DNA of 64,000 bases from assembly GCA_013112715.1 (NCBI GenBank), contig JABFGB010000005.1, positions 124,001-188,000 on the forward strand, written 5' to 3'. The notes under the pieces are model-generated. The model was not told the DNA's origin, did not search any database, and saw only the letters and a program-made list of their open reading frames with translations. Source of the DNA: Chloroflexota bacterium. Lineage in GTDB: Bacteria; Chloroflexota; Anaerolineae; Aggregatilineales; J027. This document shows positions 32,600 to 44,731 of this stretch, one piece after another. The translations under genes were made by a program, and so were the position numbers. The first letter of the stretch is position 1. Every line of letters begins with the position of its first letter.

Positions 32600-35500
32600 A
32601 TGAAACAAAACAAATACTATTGGCTTGTTTTGGTGGGGATTCTCATTCTGGCGGGATGTTTACGCTACATTGGAATCAATTGGGATTATTATAGCCATAG
32701 CCACCCCGACGAATTATTCCTGACTGCCATCGCCACACGGGTTGGAGATCGCAGTGAGCTACTCGATAATGTCAAAAAACGCTGTGCAGATGACCCCCGC
32801 CGCCATGCCTATTTCAATACGCGCTGTAGCCCTCTCAATCCCAATAACGTCAATGAAGGCAGCTACGCCTATGGCACCCTGCCAACCTTTATGGTGTATA
32901 CAGCGGGCGAAGTAGCAGTCGAAATCACGGGCAATAAGCTCTGGCGCGAATTCGATGGCCTCCACCTTGTTGGGCGTTTTGTCAATGTAATTGCCGATGT
33001 GCTGGCGACCCTGATGGTGTTTATCATTGGACGACGGCTTTTTGGCATTCAAAGCGGGCTATTTGCGTCTATGCTCTATGCCGCTGCTGCTTTGCCCATT
33101 CAGCTTGCCCACTATTGGACGGTGGACACGCTCGCCAATCTATTTTTCCTTATCGCGCTCTATGCCGCTGTCGCCATTAGTCAACGGGGTCGGACATGGG
33201 CCTTTATCTTATTCGGTTTGGCAGTAGGGGCTGGTGTCGCCTCACGTATCAACATCGCAATGGCGGCAGGCCTAGCTCCATTGGCGACCTTTATCTATCT
33301 CCGCACGCTCTACCTACAAAAACCCGATGCTTCACGTAAATTCCATTTTTTGCGATGGGTACGGGTCGCGCTGTTACTGGTCATTACAGCCGGGATTGGA
33401 TTTTTGACTTTTCGGGTCGCCCAACCCTATGCCTTTAAAGGGCCGGATATTTGGGATCTGCAAGGCAATGAAAAATGGTTCGATGATATTGAGTACGTGT
33501 CGAAATTATCGTCCAAGCAGGATGACGGGTGGCCGCCGTCGCATCAATTCGTCGGACGTCTCTCCTATTTTTATCCTTGGGCCAATATCGTGTTGTGGGG
33601 CATGGGTCTGCCACTGGGAATTTTGGCAACCATCGCCTTAATTCAAGCCATCAATAAACAAATCCAGCAGTGGGAATTATCGCCTCAAGTGGCTTTGTTA
33701 ACCGCATGGTTTATCGCCTATTTTGGGTGGCATGGTCGGCTGCATTACATGACAATGCGCTACTATCTGCCGCTGTATGGTGTATTGTGTCTGCTATTGG
33801 CATGGTGGTTGCTGCAAATCCGACCCCGTTGGTCGGTGCGCCTACGGCAAGTCGTTGTCTTGGGTACATTTCTGTGGGCATTTGTGTTCACAGGCATCTA
33901 TCGTGCGCCACAAACCCGTGTCGAGGCAGCCCGTTGGATTGACCAAAACATGCCAGCGGCGGTCACAGGGGTTGGCGAGGATGGCACATGGTACCATTTA
34001 ACGCCGGGGCGTGGAATGCGGTATCGCATGGTTACGTATTACAAACCCGAACCCACATATGAACAACTTTCCTATGAAAGCCGCCCCATCCACATCACGG
34101 GCGAGGATACGATTATTTTCAAGCGTTTGTGGCTGCGCTGGCTTGAACCCACCCCCGTTCGCGTGAACGTGCAGTTCGTTGCCTTAGACGACAATGACAT
34201 TGAAACCGAATTACTACTTGTGTTTGATGCCACCAGCGAAAACCCCCATGAAATGAGGATAGATTTGCCACCCGACAAACAAATCGAAGTGAAGCCGGGG
34301 GCCTATCGCTGGAAAATGACGGTTGAATGGGACACGGATGTTCCCATGATTCATGTCGTTCCCGCCATTGAGTACCTGAACGTTTCCAGCGACCTCTGGA
34401 GCATTGGGGCAATTCAGTTGCAACCAACAGGTCGGGCCAACATCATCCGCTATGCCATGACCGATCAAAATTATGCCTTTGGTTTCGTCCTCAAAGATCA
34501 TGATCAGACCTTAAAGGGTCTCTACATTGCTCACGCCATTGGTCTCCCCAGCAACCTCACACTCGAAATTGAAGACCAAAAATATACGGCTCAATTGGTG
34601 TCGCAGGATTCCAATACCAGCCTTTTAGGTGAGGGTCGGTATTTTGAATTTGATAAGCCAATTCGTGTTCCCCATGATACAGCCATCAATATCACCTCGA
34701 CCTATCCGCTGTGGTTTACGGGTACGACTATTGCCAGTGAGGGTGAATGGGACTTTTCCACCCCAACCCGTATCTGTTTTGAGGCGGGCAAGGTCACTTT
34801 AGGTTATTTCCCACCAAAGAGATGCCTAAATCGAAGCGGGTTTGATGAGGAATGGTACACCGAACTCCCCCTCCAAGTCGTCGAGCATGATCGGCCCGAA
34901 AAACAGCGATGGATGAGCGACGTGCTGCTGTTGGCTGATTATATGACAATTAGCACCAACCGCATGTATGATGCCTTGACACGCAACGAAAAACTCTATT
35001 GGTTCACGATTGACTATTATGAGGATTTGTTTGGGGAAAAACTGGGTTATCGTCAGATTGCCCGCTTTGATTCTCTCCCCCGTTTTGGCCCACTGGTCAT
35101 CCCCGATCAGGCATTACCCGATTGGCATCTGCCTAAATGGTTAAACGAATTAGAGGCCGAAGAAGCCTTTACGGTGTATGACCATCCGACGATCTATGTG
35201 TTCAAAAATAGAGGTTTTGAAACCAGCCAAATGACGGCCTTTGCTCCCTATGTGGATGAGCGCAACCGCATTGATTTGGAGGAGGTCGCCGAACCCACCT
35301 ATGTTGCATCGGAGAAGGCAGCCCGGAACCGTGAAATCCAATTACAGGTGGTCGTATTTGCCATAGGCTTCATCGCTATCAGTTGGCTGGCCTTCCCCTT
35401 GATGTTTGCTTTGTTCCCATCGCTACCTTTGCGCGGCTATGGATTGGGACGTGGTATCTCATGGTTGGTGTTGGCGCTTCTTCCGTGGTGGTTGACCGCC

Positions 35501-37504
35501 GCCTTCCATGTACGCCTGTGGACACGCCTAGCCCTCATCGGTTTCGTCGCGGGTTATCTGGTCGTAATGGTCATTTTGTACATTCGTCAGCGTCAGCAAA
35601 TTTGGCCCTTCGTCAAAACCCATTGGCGCGGTATGGTCGCCCTCGATTTAGTCTGGTTAGCCGCCTTCGGGTTAGGCATCGTGATGCGCGGTGTTAATCC
35701 CGACTTTTGGCATCCTTGGCTGGGGGGCGAAAAACATATGGACTTGGCCTATCTGAATGCTGTTTGGCGCACCGGTCAATTTCCACCGCCTAGTCCGTGG
35801 TTGAGCGGGTTTGAAATCAACTACTACTACTTAGGGTTTGTCGTTGCCGCCATGCCGCTCAAGCTATTCGGCTCGGCCCCCGAATATGGCCCAAATCTGA
35901 TTCTGGCGGTGTTCTACGCGACCATTTTGACCCTTGTCTGCAATCTGCTGCTGTCGGTGTTGAGCCAAGTCGGACACCTCCGTTGGAGGATGGCGCTGGC
36001 AGGTATGGGCACGATATTGGTAATGATTGCGGGGAACTATGGGGCGTTTGATTTGGTGCTGCAATCTATCGCCAACATGCCCGCCCATCGCTGGTATTGG
36101 TATCCCACTCGCATGATTGCCGAATCAAAAAATGGCGGTGGCGGGATAATTACCGAGGTACCGTTCTTTTCCTTCCTATGGGGTGATTTCCATGCCCACC
36201 TGTTTGGATTGCTGCCCGTCACCATTCTTCTCACGCTGTTATGGGTGACATACAAACAGCGGGCATGGTGGCAGGTGATGGCACTGGGCAGCCTTATCAG
36301 CATTATCTATATGACCAACACATGGGATATTTTGGTCTATGTGCCGTTGACCCTGCTGGTCATTTTGTTGATTAGCCGTTTCACACAGCGCCTACCGCTA
36401 CTGCTGGCGCTATTTGCTGTTGGGGCGTTAATCACAGTTTGGCCGTATTTACAGCACACGACACTTGGGGAATATGGCAGCATTAGCCGCTGGGAAGGGC
36501 CACGCTCGATTCTGAAGCCCTTCTTGCTGACATGGGGGGCGCCGCTGGCGGTCATGCTGATTTGGCTCGTTCATCGGATCAAAGCTATTGCTTTGCCAGA
36601 TGCCGATGCGCCTGTTGAAATTGGGTTATTCATCTTGGCAGTATTTCCGGCTTTGCAGGTCGGTGGGCAAGATGGTACGTCGGTTTTATTGGTCACCATT
36701 TTGCTGCTGGCCCTATTGTTAGTGGCTTTGGATCGAAAGAACATCGCGCCGCACGGTGGGGTTGTATTTTTCGCCGCTGGTCTCCTCGCCATTGAGCATG
36801 TGGTGATCGTTGGTGACATTGACCGCATGAACACGGGTTTCAAGGTGGCTTTCCAGCTTTGGTTGTGGGCGGGTTTGTTGATTCCTGTGCTGTTGTATCA
36901 TATGGTACAGCAGCGCCGCGCCTACTTGCTGACAAGCATTTCAATATTGATCTTACTACCCGGCCTCGTCTTCCCTATTAAAGCCTTACCTGCCCGCGAC
37001 AAGGAATCCTATACCAAAGATTTTACGCTGGACGGCTACGACTTTATGGATGTGATGCCCTATCCATTGGAGTCCGAAACTATCAGCATTGCCGATGATG
37101 AGCCTCTGATTCGTTATATGCGTTCCCACGTCAAAGGCTATCCGGTAATTGCCGAACTGTATACAGGTGAATATCGCTGGAACACACGCATCGCAAGCTA
37201 CACGGGCCTGCCGACTGTTATGGGTTGGGGCAACCACATGCGCCAACAGTTCCCGCATCAGGCCGAGGAGTTAGAGCAGCGTATCGGCGACATTCGGCTG
37301 TTCTACACCACCACCAGCAAAGACCTCCTATTAAACTTGATACGCAAATATCAGATCCAATACATCGTATCCGGTGAATTGGAACATACAATGGATCGTA
37401 ATGGTCAGTTTTCGGTCTTGCTCAATTTGGTGACATCGGGGCATTTGTCAGTCGAATATCAAAGTAACAACACATGGTTGTTTAAAGTGGAAAAGACAGA
37501 ATGA
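32600..37504 (+). CDS. giant membrane protein: GT39-like half fused to DUF2298 (Chlor_Arch_YYY) half
   Basis: The protein has 1634 residues. Residues 1-430 form a GT39/PMT-like multi-helix region starting with one helix and then HSHPDELFLTAIA, the acidic loop expected at a lipid-sugar site. Residues about 440-910 are a large soluble, beta-rich part probably outside the cell. Residues about 930-1580 are a second multi-helix region with the name-giving NYYYLGFVVAAMPLKLFG and VPFFSFLWGDFHAHLFGLLP. These are features of DUF2298, a family of Chloroflexi and Archaea. Roles proposed for the family are in surface glycosylation, with no reaction proven to my knowledge. It overlaps the metallophosphoesterase gene by 4 nt. 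Confidence 0.88.
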   Translation: MKQNKYYWLVLVGILILAGCLRYIGINWDYYSHSHPDELFLTAIATRVGDRSELLDNVKKRCADDPRRHAYFNTRCSPLNPNNVNEGSYAYGTLPTFMVYTAGEVAVEITGNKLWREFDGLHLVGRFVNVIADVLATLMVFIIGRRLFGIQSGLFASMLYAAAALPIQLAHYWTVDTLANLFFLIALYAAVAISQRGRTWAFILFGLAVGAGVASRINIAMAAGLAPLATFIYLRTLYLQKPDASRKFHFLRWVRVALLLVITAGIGFLTFRVAQPYAFKGPDIWDLQGNEKWFDDIEYVSKLSSKQDDGWPPSHQFVGRLSYFYPWANIVLWGMGLPLGILATIALIQAINKQIQQWELSPQVALLTAWFIAYFGWHGRLHYMTMRYYLPLYGVLCLLLAWWLLQIRPRWSVRLRQVVVLGTFLWAFVFTGIYRAPQTRVEAARWIDQNMPAAVTGVGEDGTWYHLTPGRGMRYRMVTYYKPEPTYEQLSYESRPIHITGEDTIIFKRLWLRWLEPTPVRVNVQFVALDDNDIETELLLVFDATSENPHEMRIDLPPDKQIEVKPGAYRWKMTVEWDTDVPMIHVVPAIEYLNVSSDLWSIGAIQLQPTGRANIIRYAMTDQNYAFGFVLKDHDQTLKGLYIAHAIGLPSNLTLEIEDQKYTAQLVSQDSNTSLLGEGRYFEFDKPIRVPHDTAINITSTYPLWFTGTTIASEGEWDFSTPTRICFEAGKVTLGYFPPKRCLNRSGFDEEWYTELPLQVVEHDRPEKQRWMSDVLLLADYMTISTNRMYDALTRNEKLYWFTIDYYEDLFGEKLGYRQIARFDSLPRFGPLVIPDQALPDWHLPKWLNELEAEEAFTVYDHPTIYVFKNRGFETSQMTAFAPYVDERNRIDLEEVAEPTYVASEKAARNREIQLQVVVFAIGFIAISWLAFPLMFALFPSLPLRGYGLGRGISWLVLALLPWWLTAAFHVRLWTRLALIGFVAGYLVVMVILYIRQRQQIWPFVKTHWRGMVALDLVWLAAFGLGIVMRGVNPDFWHPWLGGEKHMDLAYLNAVWRTGQFPPPSPWLSGFEINYYYLGFVVAAMPLKLFGSAPEYGPNLILAVFYATILTLVCNLLLSVLSQVGHLRWRMALAGMGTILVMIAGNYGAFDLVLQSIANMPAHRWYWYPTRMIAESKNGGGGIITEVPFFSFLWGDFHAHLFGLLPVTILLTLLWVTYKQRAWWQVMALGSLISIIYMTNTWDILVYVPLTLLVILLISRFTQRLPLLLALFAVGALITVWPYLQHTTLGEYGSISRWEGPRSILKPFLLTWGAPLAVMLIWLVHRIKAIALPDADAPVEIGLFILAVFPALQVGGQDGTSVLLVTILLLALLLVALDRKNIAPHGGVVFFAAGLLAIEHVVIVGDIDRMNTGFKVAFQLWLWAGLLIPVLLYHMVQQRRAYLLTSISILILLPGLVFPIKALPARDKESYTKDFTLDGYDFMDVMPYPLESETISIADDEPLIRYMRSHVKGYPVIAELYTGEYRWNTRIASYTGLPTVMGWGNHMRQQFPHQAEELEQRIGDIRLFYTTTSKDLLLNLIRKYQIQYIVSGELEHTMDRNGQFSVLLNLVTSGHLSVEYQSNNTWLFKVEKTE

Positions 37505-38310
37505 TACAACGGGTCGGTTGGCTCACCGACATTCATCTCAATTTTTTGCCATTGCCACTCGTGAATGAATTTGTCGAAAAACTCAGCCGTCATAAGGTGG
37601 ATGCTTGGCTCATTAGTGGCGACATTGGCGAGTCCGATAATCTCACTACCTACCTCAAAATCATGGCGGCCAAATTGCCTCAGCCCATCCATTTTGTCTT
37701 GGGCAACCATGATTTTTACTGGGGTTCAATCTATGGAGTTCGGAACGAGGTCAAAGAATTGTGTCGCCAAAATCCCCATTTGCATTATCTGAATAACCTT
37801 GAATGTGTTGAACTCACCCCAACGGTTGGCCTCATCGGGCATGATGGTTGGGCCGATTTACAATATGGTAATTTTGCCACTTCAGATGTCTGGATGAATG
37901 ATTATGTCCTCATTCGAGAGTTGGCGGGTCAGAAGAAAGTTGGGCTGTTACCAAGAGTGGTATCGCTGGCAGATGAGGCGGCCCAGCATTTTCGACGGGT
38001 TTTGCCGAGTACACTAGAACGCTTTGCACACGTAGTGGTCGTCACCCATGTACCCCCGTTTCAAGAGGCCTGTTGGCATGAGGGTCGCATCTCCGATGAC
38101 AATTGGCTGCCGCATTTTACTTGCAAAGCAGTGGGTGACGTACTACGCGAAATGATGCTGCTCCATCCGCATCGGCACATGACAGTTCTGTGTGGGCATA
38201 CACATGGCAAAGGGGAGGCGCAAATTCTCCCCAATCTGAAGGTCTTAACGGGTGGGGCTGAATATGGCAACCCCACCGTGCAAAAAATCTTCGACTTTAC
38301 TCCTCGGTAA
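37501..38310 (+). CDS. calcineurin-like metallophosphoesterase
   Basis: The protein has 269 residues. The five metal and active-site blocks are in order: WLTDIHLNF (D-x-H), SGDIGES, LGNHDFYWG, VVVTHVPPF and CGHTHGKGE. This is the calcineurin-like phosphoesterase fold with two metals. It may cleave a phosphomonoester, a phosphodiester or a lipid-linked pyrophosphate. Its ATG overlaps the stop of the DUF2298 gene (ATGA), so a job in the same surface-sugar process is a reasonable guess. Its 3' end overlaps the convergent kinase gene by 14 bp. Confidence 0.88.
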   Translation: MIQRVGWLTDIHLNFLPLPLVNEFVEKLSRHKVDAWLISGDIGESDNLTTYLKIMAAKLPQPIHFVLGNHDFYWGSIYGVRNEVKELCRQNPHLHYLNNLECVELTPTVGLIGHDGWADLQYGNFATSDVWMNDYVLIRELAGQKKVGLLPRVVSLADEAAQHFRRVLPSTLERFAHVVVVTHVPPFQEACWHEGRISDDNWLPHFTCKAVGDVLREMMLLHPHRHMTVLCGHTHGKGEAQILPNLKVLTGGAEYGNPTVQKIFDFTPR

Positions 38311-41300
38311 CGGCAAATTCACATGTGCCTGCGCTGATACTGCACGTTGCCAGTGTTTCTTCATCACGCCGGACATAAAAAACACTATTGCCATTCGCCG
38401 CTGTCCAGAAATGGGCGCTTGCCGCACTCTGCCGAATCCATCCCAGTGAATTGCGGCATGGCGAAGGCATTACCGCCTCATCACGGGTCACTAATTGGAG
38501 ACAGGCATCCGGCAACATCCGTCGTAAATCATCTAATGCGATATTGGCGGGTAGCCACTGCGCTGTCGAAAATGTCCCAAAGGAATCCCCCTCAAATACC
38601 AAGTCGCTCACATTTTGCTGGAACGGTGAAATATTAAACAACAAAATGGAATCTGCGGTGTATACCAAACGAATTTGCGGCTGAGTGGGCAGGGTCGGCG
38701 ATGGTGTTGGCGTCAATGTTTGGGCGAGTTCGACAGGTGTGCAGAAAGGTTCAACGATATAGATTTCACGTTCACTACACGACAAATCGCGCACCAAGCG
38801 ATTTTCGCGCACCCATGTCTTGAGTTCCTCAAGCGTATCAATGCGCCATTGGATGATACTGCCATCATCCGAAGCCGAAAACGCTGCCCGCCCATCGTGA
38901 CTAAACGCGACATGATTCACCCCACCACGATGACCTTCAAAGCGGCGGATTTCTTCACCCGACTCCAAATCCCATAGAATGACGGTGGCATCGGTTGAGC
39001 CGGACAGGGCAGTATTTCCATCGGGGCTGAAGGCCACGCTATTCACCGAGGCGATATGGCGGCGGAATCGGCGAACTTCTGTGCCCGTCGCTACATTCCA
39101 CAAAATCAGGCTTTCGTCGGATGACCCCGACAATATCTGCCGTCCATTCGGGCTAAAGGCGACGCTGTTAACCGCACCAAGATGCCCAGTAAAACGCTGA
39201 ATTTCCTCTCCATCCAACGACCATAAAATGATTGCCCCATCCGCCCCACCGGACAATAGTTGTTGTTCATCAGCACTAAGAGCGAGGCTGAGGACGGCGC
39301 TTTCCTGATCGGTGACTTGCTGGATTTGTGTGCCTGTTTCGACATCCCACACGAGAATCCGACCATCTTCGCCACTTGAAATCACATACGACGTGGTATT
39401 TTGCCACACGAGGCTGTAGACTGCGCCTACATGACCCGCCAATTGGCGAACCTGCTGGCCTGTTGCCACATCCCACAAGATAATTTCGCCGTTATCTGAC
39501 CCTGATACGAGCAGTTGGTTATCGGCATTAAATGCAGCAGTCAGCACCCGACCCGCATGTCCTTCAAAACGCCGAAGCTCCACACCTGTCGCCACATCCC
39601 ACAAAATCAGTGTGTGATCGTCGGCTGCCGATAGCATCCATAGGTTATCCGTCGAGATGGTTATATCCCTTACCGCCCCACCATGCCCCAGATTGGCAAA
39701 TCGTCGCAGCGGGGTCTCGTTTTGGGGATCCCATACAACCAGTACACGGTTCAGCCCACCTGCTAAAATATCGAATCCCACTGGTGTAACGGCTATATCT
39801 ACCCCAAAAATCGGGCCGGTGGCGGGGTCGTTATAGCGGTGGAGCATCTCGCCAGTTTCCCGATCCCATAAAACCAATGTGCCATTTTCACCCGCCGATA
39901 GGATTTGCGTGCCATCCGGGGTGAATTGAGCACGAGTAATCGGAGAATCTTGACCCGTGAGAGTTCTAACACGAGTAGCAGTCTGAATATCCCACAGCAC
40001 CAATGTCCCGTCCTTTGAACCAGACAGAATACTGCCACCACGCGGGCTAAATTCTGCACTGGTTACTGGGCCGCCATGCCCCTCGAACCGAATGACTTCC
40101 TCGCCTGTCGAAACATCCCATAAAATCAGGCTGCTATCCTCAAATCCGCCCAGCGCCTGCTGACCATCAAGGTTGAATGCGACGGTATAGACTTGACCCT
40201 CATAACCCTCAAAGCGTCGAATTTCTTCACCCGTCAGTAAGTTCCACAGAATCAACAACCCGTCTTGTGATCCGGTCAGCACTGTCTCCCCATTGGGGCT
40301 AATCGCCACACTGGTCACCGGGCTGGTATGGCCTTCCAAGCGCAGCACGACCTGACCCGACAACACATTCCACCAAATCGCGGTCGTATCGTTCGAGCCA
40401 GTCAAAGCATATTGACCATCAAAATTAAATTCGATGCTCGTCACCGGGGCCGTGTGCCCGACGAAACGATTAATCACCTGCCCTGTCTCAACCGCCCATA
40501 ATATGACTGAGCCATCCAGTGAGCCTGTTAAAAGGGTACGACCATCGGGGCTAACCGCTATGTCCCCATTGGGCGCACCCCGTCCACTGAATTTTTCCGT
40601 CACCGCGCCGGGGTGTAAATCCCATTGCAGCAGGGCCATATCATCCGCACCAGAAAATACGGTCAGACCATCGGGACGAACCGCCACCGTATTGATGTTC
40701 GCCACATGCCCTCTAAGCGTATATAGCAGATCACCGGATTCAACTTCCCAGATTTTGAGCGTGTCATCCGCCGATGCTGAAACAAAGCGCAGGCCATCGG
40801 GGGTAAAAGCGATGGCTCGCACCCAGTTGGTATGCCCCTCGAAACGGCGGATTTCCCGCCCTGCAACAATGTCCCACAAAATGAGTCGAGCATCATCCGC
40901 CCCAGTCAAAATGGAGCGACCATCGGGGCTAAACGCGACGGCCCGTACCCAATCGGTATGCCCCTCAAAGCGGCGGATTTCCCGCCCTGCAACAATGTCC
41001 CACAGTACCACTATCCCCCGCCGACTGTCTGTACCATTTTCCACTGAACCTGACAGCGCTGTTAATCCATTCGGGCTAAAGGCGACACTGGCAACCGGGC
41101 CGAGATTGCCGGAGAGCTTTTGAAGCTGTGTACCACTCTCAATATCCCATAAAATGAGGGTCGTATCACCCGAACCGGACAGGGCGTGTTTTCCATCGGG
41201 GCTAAAAGCTACCGAGAAAACCGTATTGGTATGGCCTCGGAATTGACGGATTTGTTCACCAGTCTCAATATCCCATAAAATCAGGGTGTTATCTTCCGAA

Positions 41301-44300
41301 CCCGATAGAATTGTGCGACCATCCGGGCTAAAGGCGACAGTCCGTACCCAATTGGTATGTCCCATAAAACGACGCACAATGTCCCCACTGGCAATGTCCC
41401 ACAAAATCAGGGTATTGTCATCACCGCCGGATAAAAGATAATGTCCATCCGGGCTGACCGCCGCGGCCAATACTCGTCCAGAATGTCCAACAAACTGCTG
41501 ACGGACACCGGGAGCGTACCCTACTTGAGCCAATACACTTTGGGCCAACGCCGAGGGCTGTTCCGATTGATTGGCTTGCAAGGCTAGGGCGATAGAAAGT
41601 TGATTGTCACCATTTTGCAGGGCGACCTGTTGAGCATTCGCCGCTTGCAAAACACTTTGGGCCAATTGCCGCTGAATCTCTGCTACGTCTTCCGCTGCCA
41701 ACCGCCCTGCTGATTCTGTTTGGACAATAGCGGCTTGTGTCGAAACATTATTAGCATTGATCTCAGCTTCACCCTGTGCGACAGTTGCGGTTGCGGCATT
41801 ATTTCGGGCATTAGCGGCCTCGGTTGCAGCATTTTGTGCCTGTACCAATGCCTCTCCTTGGGCATAGGTCGCTGTCGCCGCGTTATCTTGGGCTATCGCC
41901 GCTTGGGTGGCTGCGATATTTGCTTGGGCAACGGCTTCCCCTTGCGCATAGGTCGCTGTCGCGGCATTATTTTGAGCAATTTCGGCCTGCACAACCGCCT
42001 CGCCTTGGGCATAAGTCGCGGTGGCGGCACTATTTTGGGCATCCTTCGCTGAGGTCGCGGCAATAAAGGCTTGGTTAATCGCATCCCCGCGTGCCGTCTC
42101 CGCAACTTGGGCCTGAACTTCAGCCGCTCCTTGCGCATAGGTAGCGGTAACGGCAGCTAATTCGGCAGTCGAGGCGCTGTTGACTGCGATAGTTGCAGCG
42201 CTATTCGCAGTAGCAGCCTGTTGGTCAGACACACCCTGCAAATACTGAGCAGTTCTGGCACTGTCTACGGCGTCGGCCCGGGCATTTTCGGCCCGGCGGC
42301 TCTGGCTAAAGGCAAAAATGGTTAGGCCAATCCCCATGACTGCGACCAGCACCGCCGCGATGAGGGCCAAACCGCGATTGCGATTGCGCCGACGAAGCTC
42401 CGCTTCCCGCGCTTTGCGTTCCTGTTCGGCAGCCAACTCCAATTCGCGTTTTTGGGCGCTGGCACGAATAAAATCCACTTCGCGCTGGTTCAGGGCAATA
42501 TCGCCCCCCGCCAACAGTGCCTCATATTGCTGTAGGCGTACCCCAGCAACCAGATAATTGGCGTCTTGCTGATGATCCCACCATTCCTGTGTTTCACTCG
42601 TCAAGCGCCGCTGCAACCGCAAATCTTCACGACTGTCGTTGAGCCATTCACGCAGGCGTACCCATTGGCGAATTAAGGCCTCATGAGCCACTTCAACTGT
42701 AGGTTCGCGCGTTTGGGGGTCATTATCAAACGTCAGCAGGCGTGATTTACCAAAGATGTCAATAACGGCTTCCATAACCTCTTGCTGCTGACCCGCCACC
42801 GAAATGAGTTCGGCCCAGTGAGCGCGACGGCGCGTATCTTCATTGCCTTCGCCAACGGCCACCAAGCGCAGGAACATCTGACGGGTCGCCGCTTGTTTTT
42901 CGGGGTCTAGCTCGACAAATATTTCTTCGGCCCGTCGTGCCAATGCCCCCAACGCACCGCCAATCCCATGATAGGCCTTCATCGTTAGGGTCATGCCTTC
43001 GCGTCGTTCAAAAACCTCGGTCAAGGCATATTGCAGCAGGGGAAGCGCCCCCGGCTCATTGCTGACATCACTCACAATCGCGGCGACCAATTGTGGCTCG
43101 ACAATTAATCCAACCCGTTTCGCTGGCCCAACAATAGTTCGTTCCAATTCATCAGCCGAAAGGGGCAACACTACTTCAGTACGTTCGCGGATGAGCGCCC
43201 CAAACTCAGGATAAAGCAAGGGACGGTCATAAAAATCAGCCCGCAGGGTAATAATAATTCTGACGCGGCTGGCGGGGTCACGTACAGCAGCCAATAGACT
43301 GGCAAGGAAATGGGTGCGTTCGGCTTCGTTTTCGACCAGCGTAAACACTTCCTCAAACTGGTCAATCACCAGCACCAACTCACTGTTGCCCCCCGGCAGC
43401 ACTGACTTCACCATTTCGGTCAGGCCTTTGGGGTCTTCGCGCAGTCGCCTGAGCATATCTTCATCGGCGTTGACCGCAAATGAGAGGAGTTCAGTTTCAA
43501 TTTGGGTCACGGGATGTGGGCCGGGCACCATTTCGGCATAAAAACTTGAGCCATAGCCAGTAATTGCGCCATCGCGCAGCTTTGGAATCAAACCCGCCTT
43601 CACGACACTCGATTTACCACTGCCGCTTGGCCCAATGACCGCCAAAAAACGGGAATCGGGGTGATTATCCCGTAGGCGACTGAGCAGTTGATCAACAAGG
43701 TTGTCGCGCCCAAAAAAATCGGCAGCATCCGCCACTTGGAAAGCCCGTAGACCCTTATAAGGATTAACAGGTTCAGCCAACATCAACAAATTGGTGTCAA
43801 TGGTAATTGGCCCGGTTGTGGCCGAGTCGCGGGTAATGATGATAAGCTCATCCCCAGTATCTTCCACTTGGGCAGGTTTCGCTGATGAGGACGCACCCAA
43901 CGCACGCCTAAAATCGGCGGCGAAGGTCAACGTATCAGGATAACGATCTTGCGGGTCTTTGGCAGTCGCTTTTTGAATGACCCGATTCAATGAGGCAGGT
44001 AACTCATTTCGTAGGTCACGCAGGGGCGGCAGGGGATCATTTAAATGACGCAAAATCAATTCAGACGATTGGGCATCCGCAAAGGGCTGTTGACCTGTTA
44101 ATACCTCATACATCACGATGCCGAGGCCATAAACATCGGTTTGAGGCGTAATGGGGTGACTCCGAATCTGCTCCGGCGACATATAGGCAGGCGAGCCGAT
44201 CACTGTACCGGGGGTATCCAGATCATCCACCGCTCCGACGACCTTGCCATCGCCTAAGTTTTTCGCAATCCCAAAATCTGACAAATAGGCATTGCGCTCT

Positions 44301-44731
44301 TCATCGAGCAAAATATTGGCGGGCTTGAGGTCGCGGTGAATGACGCCATTGCGATGTGCGACTGCCAATGCCGCCCCAATTTGGTCAAGCAAACGGCCTG
44401 CTTCTTCAGGCGTCCAAAAACCACGTTTAAGCGCGTCCTGCATACTACCACCGCGCAACCACCGCATGACCAAAAACGCACCTGTAGGGTCACGCCAATA
44501 GTCGTAAAGGGGAACGATATGGAGATGTTCTAATCGGGCAACCAATTGGGCTTCAGCCTCAAACCGCCGGATAAAATCGGGATGATTGGCGTATTGGGGG
44601 AGGATAATTTTGATGGCAACCTCACGCTTAACGAGTGTCTGATAGGCGCGATAAACAGCCCCAAAACCGCCCTGTCCGATGCGTTCCTGTAGTTCATAAC
44701 CTTTAATCGTATGCCCGCTAAGGTTATCCAT
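38297..44731 (-). CDS. giant receptor: Ser/Thr kinase, STAND NTPase, membrane helix, Ala-rich stalk, 21 WD40 repeats
   Basis: From the ATG at 44731 the protein has 2144 residues; an upstream TTG at 44755 is possible. Order of parts: Hanks-type kinase (12-277; GQGGFGAVY, Lys41, HRDLKPAN 132-139, DFG 152-154), STAND-type NTPase (about 322-730; NPYKGLRAFQ, Walker A GPSGSGKS 367-374, Walker B VLVIDQFEE 453-461), a charged helix, one membrane segment (787-809) and an Ala-rich helical stalk (about 840-1030) with five near-copies of AATATYAQGEA. Then come 21 WD40 units (about 1078-1970) and, after a TPTPSPTLP linker, a 130-residue tail with four Cys. The helix and linker suggest kinase and NTPase inside and propellers outside. 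The catalytic residues look intact. Ligand and targets are unknown. Confidence 0.92.
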   Translation of the reverse strand: MDNLSGHTIKGYELQERIGQGGFGAVYRAYQTLVKREVAIKIILPQYANHPDFIRRFEAEAQLVARLEHLHIVPLYDYWRDPTGAFLVMRWLRGGSMQDALKRGFWTPEEAGRLLDQIGAALAVAHRNGVIHRDLKPANILLDEERNAYLSDFGIAKNLGDGKVVGAVDDLDTPGTVIGSPAYMSPEQIRSHPITPQTDVYGLGIVMYEVLTGQQPFADAQSSELILRHLNDPLPPLRDLRNELPASLNRVIQKATAKDPQDRYPDTLTFAADFRRALGASSSAKPAQVEDTGDELIIITRDSATTGPITIDTNLLMLAEPVNPYKGLRAFQVADAADFFGRDNLVDQLLSRLRDNHPDSRFLAVIGPSGSGKSSVVKAGLIPKLRDGAITGYGSSFYAEMVPGPHPVTQIETELLSFAVNADEDMLRRLREDPKGLTEMVKSVLPGGNSELVLVIDQFEEVFTLVENEAERTHFLASLLAAVRDPASRVRIIITLRADFYDRPLLYPEFGALIRERTEVVLPLSADELERTIVGPAKRVGLIVEPQLVAAIVSDVSNEPGALPLLQYALTEVFERREGMTLTMKAYHGIGGALGALARRAEEIFVELDPEKQAATRQMFLRLVAVGEGNEDTRRRAHWAELISVAGQQQEVMEAVIDIFGKSRLLTFDNDPQTREPTVEVAHEALIRQWVRLREWLNDSREDLRLQRRLTSETQEWWDHQQDANYLVAGVRLQQYEALLAGGDIALNQREVDFIRASAQKRELELAAEQERKAREAELRRRNRNRGLALIAAVLVAVMGIGLTIFAFSQSRRAENARADAVDSARTAQYLQGVSDQQAATANSAATIAVNSASTAELAAVTATYAQGAAEVQAQVAETARGDAINQAFIAATSAKDAQNSAATATYAQGEAVVQAEIAQNNAATATYAQGEAVAQANIAATQAAIAQDNAATATYAQGEALVQAQNAATEAANARNNAATATVAQGEAEINANNVSTQAAIVQTESAGRLAAEDVAEIQRQLAQSVLQAANAQQVALQNGDNQLSIALALQANQSEQPSALAQSVLAQVGYAPGVRQQFVGHSGRVLAAAVSPDGHYLLSGGDDNTLILWDIASGDIVRRFMGHTNWVRTVAFSPDGRTILSGSEDNTLILWDIETGEQIRQFRGHTNTVFSVAFSPDGKHALSGSGDTTLILWDIESGTQLQKLSGNLGPVASVAFSPNGLTALSGSVENGTDSRRGIVVLWDIVAGREIRRFEGHTDWVRAVAFSPDGRSILTGADDARLILWDIVAGREIRRFEGHTNWVRAIAFTPDGLRFVSASADDTLKIWEVESGDLLYTLRGHVANINTVAVRPDGLTVFSGADDMALLQWDLHPGAVTEKFSGRGAPNGDIAVSPDGRTLLTGSLDGSVILWAVETGQVINRFVGHTAPVTSIEFNFDGQYALTGSNDTTAIWWNVLSGQVVLRLEGHTSPVTSVAISPNGETVLTGSQDGLLILWNLLTGEEIRRFEGYEGQVYTVAFNLDGQQALGGFEDSSLILWDVSTGEEVIRFEGHGGPVTSAEFSPRGGSILSGSKDGTLVLWDIQTATRVRTLTGQDSPITRAQFTPDGTQILSAGENGTLVLWDRETGEMLHRYNDPATGPIFGVDIAVTPVGFDILAGGLNRVLVVWDPQNETPLRRFANLGHGGAVRDITISTDNLWMLSAADDHTLILWDVATGVELRRFEGHAGRVLTAAFNADNQLLVSGSDNGEIILWDVATGQQVRQLAGHVGAVYSLVWQNTTSYVISSGEDGRILVWDVETGTQIQQVTDQESAVLSLALSADEQQLLSGGADGAIILWSLDGEEIQRFTGHLGAVNSVAFSPNGRQILSGSSDESLILWNVATGTEVRRFRRHIASVNSVAFSPDGNTALSGSTDATVILWDLESGEEIRRFEGHRGGVNHVAFSHDGRAAFSASDDGSIIQWRIDTLEELKTWVRENRLVRDLSCSEREIYIVEPFCTPVELAQTLTPTPSPTLPTQPQIRLVYTADSILLFNISPFQQNVSDLVFEGDSFGTFSTAQWLPANIALDDLRRMLPDACLQLVTRDEAVMPSPCRNSLGWIRQSAASAHFWTAANGNSVFYVRRDEETLATCSISAGTCEFAVTEE
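38830..41500 (-). repeat. 21 tandem WD40-coding units
   Basis: A repeat of about 126 bp runs through this part of the kinase gene. Each unit codes for a WD40 blade ending in the pattern S-G-[GS]-x-D-[NG]-x-L-[IV]-L-W-D followed by x-[ET]-[ST]-G-x-x-[IV]-[RL] and R-F-x-G-H. I count 21 units on the translation, some degenerate (units 8, 13, 14, 17 and 18 lack the GH pair). Two neighbouring units around 40830-41020 are nearly identical in DNA, a sign of recent duplication or conversion. Confidence 0.85.
41725..42157 (-). repeat. Ala-rich stalk repeats with AATATYAQGEA core
   Basis: Five near-copies of the peptide AATATYAQGEA, each followed by a helical filler of variable length (VVQAEIAQNN, VAQANIAATQ and similar), lie between the membrane helix and the WD40 part. 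The DNA shows matching repeats with gcataggtcgctgtcgc-like cores on the plus strand. The likely structure is a long helical or coiled-coil stalk. Confidence 0.75.

Follow-up and report, generated by a model that had tools for sequence, protein, structure and literature searches.

The window analysed here, 64,000 nucleotides of contig JABFGB010000005.1 from a Chloroflexota bacterium of the class Anaerolineae, carries on its minus strand a complete open reading frame for a protein of 2144 amino acids, counted from the ATG at position 44731; an in-frame TTG upstream of this ATG would add eight codons, giving 2152 residues. From the N terminus to the C terminus, the protein is made up of a kinase, an nSTAND1 NTPase, a transmembrane helix, an alanine-rich stalk, 21 WD40 units, which fill the C-terminal half (Pfam E 6.9e-180), and a tail with six cysteines (Table 1). 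A preliminary description of this DNA had already joined a kinase and a STAND NTPase in one 2144-residue chain; its reading frame, strand and coordinates are right, and the intact Walker motifs, the single membrane helix, the Ala-rich stalk, the 21 WD40 units and the Cys-containing tail that it listed were all found. Each of the five species sampled from the genus has the gene intact, with exactly 21 units and with 83-94% identity over the propellers and tail, and dN/dS in the main domains is 0.01-0.11; taken together, this excludes chance. The product is a very large bacterial membrane protein, and probably a surface sensor. Elsewhere in the window, positions 32600-37504 encode a 1634-residue membrane protein in which a PMT_2-type glycosyltransferase region is fused to a DUF2298 domain.

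Table 1. Features of the 2144-residue protein and its gene (positions in the window)
Feature	Residues	Position	Strand	Evidence
Complete ORF, 2144 aa		38297..44731	-	orthologues in four other species
Hanks-type Ser/Thr kinase domain, PknB-like, complete set of catalytic motifs	12-264	43940..44698	-	PF00069, motifs, model
nSTAND1 NTPase	324-724	42560..43762	-	PF20703, E 1.1e-121, plus motifs
Single transmembrane helix	788-806	42314..42370	-	hydropathy; identical in five species; model
Ala-rich helical stalk, 21/28-residue repeats	807-1015	41687..42313	-	composition, periodicity, model
Helical collar ahead of the propellers	1016-1067	41531..41686	-	near-invariant among species; low-confidence helix prediction
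Propeller 1, WD40 units 1-7	1070-1371	40619..41524	-	units, model
Propeller 2, WD40 units 8-14	1372-1668	39728..40618	-	units, model
Propeller 3, WD40 units 15-21	1669-1963	38843..39727	-	units, model
Post-propeller helix, family-conserved Cys pair C1985/C1997, TPTPSP linker	1964-2012	38696..38842	-	alignment, model
C-terminal domain with 4 Cys	2013-2144	38300..38695	-	recurrence in secreted/membrane-anchored proteins of the order

The kinase (Pfam E 2.6e-52) has what defines the Hanks type: a glycine loop (GQGGFGAV), the VAIK lysine (within AIK), the HRD aspartate, DFG and an APE-like motif (SPE), all intact. Its nearest fold is that of Mycobacterium tuberculosis PknB (TM-score 0.89 of target). 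NF033483, the model for PASTA receptor kinases, spans the kinase alone with 285 bits, below its cut-off of 450, and by this comparison the protein has no extracellular PASTA repeats of the PknB/Stk1 type. In some relatives HRD reads HQD or HLD; these were considered as pseudokinases, which was ruled out since the catalytic Asp, the Lys and DFG are retained. A non-RD subset, in which HQD, HLD or HHD replaces HRD and the catalytic Asp is kept, comprises L024, L025, L059, L060, L067, L068, L079, L081, L082, L083 and L085. The NTPase scores 407 bits with the nSTAND1 profile (cut-off 27.1), with Walker A (GPSGSGKS, residues 367-374) and Walker B (VLVIDQFEE, residues 453-461) both intact; searched against PDB sequences, the region gave no match at E 0.01. 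In an AlphaFold2 model of residues 1-1000, built from 28 sequences, kinase and STAND are both folded.

The transmembrane helix has a mean Kyte-Doolittle value of 2.72, against 1.48 for the second-best window, and its sequence is 100% conserved across the five species. In the same model, a continuous helix (749-798) leaves the STAND region and runs through the start of the transmembrane segment, so that the latter is predicted not to be buried in a soluble domain; a helix inside a soluble fold, which would have spoken against the preliminary description, was not seen. Such a helix occurs in all of 86 distinct complete relatives (proteins with kinase, nSTAND1 and WD40). Lys and Arg average 5.0 in the 15 residues preceding it and 1.8 in the 15 following, and they are more numerous before than after it in 81 of the 86, as the positive-inside rule would have it for an internal N terminus, this rule and hydropathy being predictions. 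In the 2144-residue protein, Arg residues also directly follow the helix. The Cys content of the propellers was tried as a test of topology and found uninformative, cytoplasmic part and propellers both being Cys-poor. In the 2144-residue protein, all six cysteines lie in the tail and none in residues 1-1984. The sole informative Cys feature is the even number of tail cysteines in 86/86 relatives, these cysteines being homologous and not independent.

The 132-residue C-terminal domain has no match in Pfam or NCBIfam, and its comparison with the PDB gave nothing significant. It recurs in 11 of 13 genomes. Some of the proteins that carry it have a signal-peptide-like N-terminus together with a CAP-like domain (L097) or PASTA-like repeats (L098, L108); in others it follows kinase-TM anchors (L099, L101, L103, L094, L095, L112), a TIR-TM region (L109) or short TM anchors (L113, L114, L117), the labels CAP-like, PASTA-like and TIR having been assigned by eye from the sequences and without a profile search. 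The domain thus looks like an unnamed extracytoplasmic module of about 130 residues with conserved cysteines, common to kinase, TIR, CAP-like and PASTA-like proteins. A STAND-TM-WD40 protein of more than 2300 residues (L078, G019 contig 2) has a tail with 14 Cys, apparently several copies of the Cys domain. The recurrence of the domain behind signal peptides and TM anchors is strong circumstantial evidence that the C-terminus lies outside and, by continuity, the propellers too. Domain order and single helix agree with the plan of kinase-TM-WD40 receptors, sidedness being read from charge bias and tail-domain context. The propellers therefore likely face outside and the kinase and STAND inside, as far as sequence features can tell, and the outside propellers of the preliminary description gain indirect support from the same two lines (81/86, and the tail-domain relatives). 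For receptor kinases of Planctomycetota, PMC11032199 likewise predicts kinase inside and WD40 outside.

Between membrane and propellers, the stalk contains 34% Ala; it repeats at periods of 28 and 21 residues and has three exact copies of ATATYAQGEA plus one variant. Its hydrophobic period of 3.5 residues is significant (shuffle P = 0.0005) and is that of coiled-coil heptads. Among species the stalk varies in length by the loss of 28 and the gain of 21 residues, in each case a whole number of heptads. Such differences would suit a coiled coil that may lengthen or shorten in steps that keep the register while the rest of the protein stays fixed. AlphaFold2 modelled stalk and tail at low confidence.

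A motif search and an iterated HMM agree on 21 WD40 units (residues 1070-1963), spaced almost always by 42 residues. Among the 86 relatives, raw counts are 14 in 57 proteins, 21 in exactly five, all of them orthologues of the gene described here, and 28 in one (L077), none having 15-20. Filling the wide gaps brings most of the lower counts (7-13) to 14; values of 13, 15, 16 and 30 also arise in this way, probably owing to degenerate blades or inserts. The protein with about 28 units (G056 contig 124; 30 after gap filling) belongs to another family of the order and possibly has four propellers. In 54 regular 14-unit proteins, unit 8 is on average the weakest, followed by unit 1, as expected at the start of a new ring. 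The weak units of the 2144-residue protein include 7-8 and 14-15; unit 4, which has a 7-residue insert, is weak too. An AlphaFold2 model of residues 1020-2144, built from five sequences, has a mean pLDDT of 73, with mostly 80-95 in the propellers, and the only low-confidence breaks inside them, at 1373-1388 and about 1660-1681, are the 7/8 and 14/15 joints. By our own count from the DSSP list, the model has 28 + 27 + 27 strands; units 8 and 15 each lack their first strand. These numbers, with the places of low confidence, suggest closure into three seven-bladed rings. The preliminary description had read the 21 units as three times seven, and this is borne out by the unit counts of 14, 21 and 28, by the 21 units in five species and by the position of the breaks in the model, which is consistent with sevens.

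Among PDB entries, 2ymu matches the propeller model best; PMC5587647 and PMC9218822 identify it as the 14-blade propeller of a STAND protein from Nostoc. Apaf-1 (3sfz) is also among the best matches. No single donor of the third propeller was found, the heptads having different best matches among relatives. The kind of hypervariable or newly amplified blades seen in fungal NWD receptors was ruled out, the best pair of units sharing 67% protein identity and dN/dS being low. Longer identical DNA runs between adjacent units were seen in one pair only, 5/6.

The preliminary description held the presence of both engines in one chain to be uncommon. For this lineage this is wrong, with at least seven paralogues in the host and relatives encoded at 529 loci in a scan of GTDB genomes. 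In the host genome (5.55 Mb, 76 contigs), Pkinase matches number 42 and full nSTAND1 matches at least eight, including the 2144-residue protein, plus one broken. Five paralogues have the same Pkinase-nSTAND1-WD40 order in a Pfam scan, with a TM helix between, and two further ones, L024 and L025, align over kinase and STAND. An nSTAND1 gene of the host (L026, C3:22452-23659) is divided between two frames that overlap, with a TGA inside it; this appears to be either a family member in decay or an error of assembly. Some part of the protein is matched in each of the 61 genomes from the genus, family and order, most of them having kinase and nSTAND1 matches. The best 80 of the 529 relatives are all from Chloroflexota, almost all from Anaerolineae; phylum-wide, matches spanning kinase and STAND outside the order are few among the matches listed, with at most five candidates scored per genome. 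The usual form in Anaerolineae has two propellers (14 units). Of the possibility that the architecture would prove common and characterised, the first half stood, within Anaerolineae, and the second found no support in open-access full texts, a search of which gave no description of a kinase-nSTAND1-TM-WD40 family. The 2144-residue protein is a three-propeller variant, with a long heptad stalk and an extra 4-Cys domain, of an apparently uncharacterised Anaerolineae family of receptor kinases. What is special to it is the third propeller and the unnamed cysteine-rich end domain, the basic plan being common in its Anaerolineae relatives.

Kinase and STAND have dN/dS values of 0.01-0.03 across the five species, and values in every propeller lie within 0.04-0.11, dS being saturated for the most distant species; blades 14-18 vary most. 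Hypervariable or near-identical blades were not found. Genes for a type III pantothenate kinase and a metallophosphoesterase flank the gene in 5/5 species, and those neighbours that were examined have metabolic or membrane roles, with no defence gene among them. The gene looks like a stable, vertically inherited receptor rather than a mobile or diversifying defence gene.

The reading that we favour, and hold to be probable, is that of a single-pass receptor kinase whose kinase domains would cluster in an ATP-dependent manner under the control of the STAND module. On the anatomy described above, and with a topology drawn from indirect indications, the protein would span the membrane once, N-terminus inside and C-terminus outside, and would carry, on a long coiled-coil stalk, three seven-bladed propellers and a tail domain of the disulfide type. 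Propellers and tail may bind a putative ligand located at the cell wall or farther out. On the inner side, nSTAND1 would act as an ATP-dependent clustering switch, tied to the stalk by one continuous helix, and its assembly would gather the N-terminal PknB-like kinases, leading to their mutual phosphorylation and then to that of substrates. The coupling of STAND to kinase is proposed by analogy with other STAND proteins.

Three other readings were weighed against this one. Known WD40 domains are mostly intracellular scaffolds, and the propellers might thus be cytoplasmic, the helix merely holding the protein against the membrane from the inside, where the WD40 array would assemble signalling partners; propellers devoid of Cys and the Arg residues just past the helix would fit. 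This we judge the least likely of the readings considered, given the charge bias (81/86), the even numbers of tail Cys, the occurrence of the C-terminal domain in signal-peptide proteins and behind single TM anchors, and the resemblance of the TPTPSP linker to Pro/Thr linkers of proteins sharing that domain. PknB-type receptors need only dimerisation and the kinase is PknB-like, so that STAND might be a constitutive oligomerisation platform rather than a switch, with clustering induced by ligand as in PASTA kinases. This is improbable, though a little less so: the aligned family members retain Walker A and B, and purifying selection on the STAND domain is very strong, which suggests that nucleotide chemistry matters.

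About as doubtful as the constitutive platform is a receptor for conflict, a membrane NLR-like protein that would detect phage or rival proteins at the surface and arrest growth through its kinase. STAND NTPases that carry repeat sensors typify the conflict systems of multicellular bacteria, Chloroflexi included (PMC7159879, PMC10907252), and WD40-STAND proteins serve fungal non-self recognition, as given in the abstract of PMC2873952. PADLOC kinase models also match (PD-T4-6, E 3.7e-82), yet over the kinase domain only; nearly all of the best 25 of 34 PADLOC matches are kinase-domain models, none is an Avs/AVAST model, and these generic kinase matches were rejected as evidence for defence. 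Against such a receptor stand the low dN/dS of each propeller, the blades that are neither near-identical nor hypervariable, the identical neighbours in 5/5 species and the metabolic or membrane nature of the neighbours examined. A fast-evolving phage receptor would not be expected to show such strong purifying selection or such a conserved housekeeping neighbourhood, and the phage sensor of the preliminary description is not supported as stated.

The usual view is of STAND proteins as sensors in the cytosol and of Hanks kinases as receptors driven by dimerisation. Apaf-1 shares a STAND NTPase controlled by C-terminal WD40 propellers; it is cytosolic, with a CARD effector, NB-ARC rather than nSTAND1, and two propellers. 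The Anaerolineae paralogues, such as L020, L023, L052 and L054, have the same domain order, the TM helix and usually a Cys-bearing tail, but two propellers (14 units), mostly a shorter stalk and usually no extra 4-Cys domain. Planctomycetota receptors such as those of Ca. Uabimicrobium amorphum likewise have a Hanks kinase predicted to be cytoplasmic, a single TM and WD40 arrays, of up to 19 units, predicted to lie outside; they are from another phylum, and the available part of PMC11032199 mentions no STAND between kinase and membrane and notes no coiled-coil stalk or Cys tail. PkwA of Thermomonospora curvata likewise joins a PknB-type kinase to a seven-bladed WD40 propeller in one protein, with one propeller and without STAND, membrane placement not being mentioned in what is available of PMC6113231. 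The Nostoc punctiforme WRAP/2ymu protein, the top structural match, has a STAND ATPase with a C-terminal WD40 array in a multiple of seven, but 14 blades instead of 21; it is coupled in trans to a TIR-STAND gene, is not fused to a kinase, and is described without a TM in the available parts of PMC9218822 and PMC5587647. Planctomycetota receptors, PkwA and Nostoc STAND-WD40 proteins each have two of the three modules.

One may go further, tentatively and with less than even confidence, and see in the family a class of transmembrane NLR-like receptor kinases found widely in Anaerolineae, in which external propellers, acting through a heptad stalk, would permit an ATP-dependent STAND assembly inside that would fire the fused kinase, the sensor having grown propeller by propeller. 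The unit counts of 14, 21 and 28 illustrate cleanly how sensors grow one complete propeller at a time, and the 4-Cys tail domain gives kinase, TIR, CAP-like and PASTA-like proteins an extracytoplasmic module in common that has no name yet. With hundreds of members, in which a STAND switch apparently stands between an outside sensor and a kinase, this family would make STAND-controlled transmembrane signalling directly testable in bacteria.
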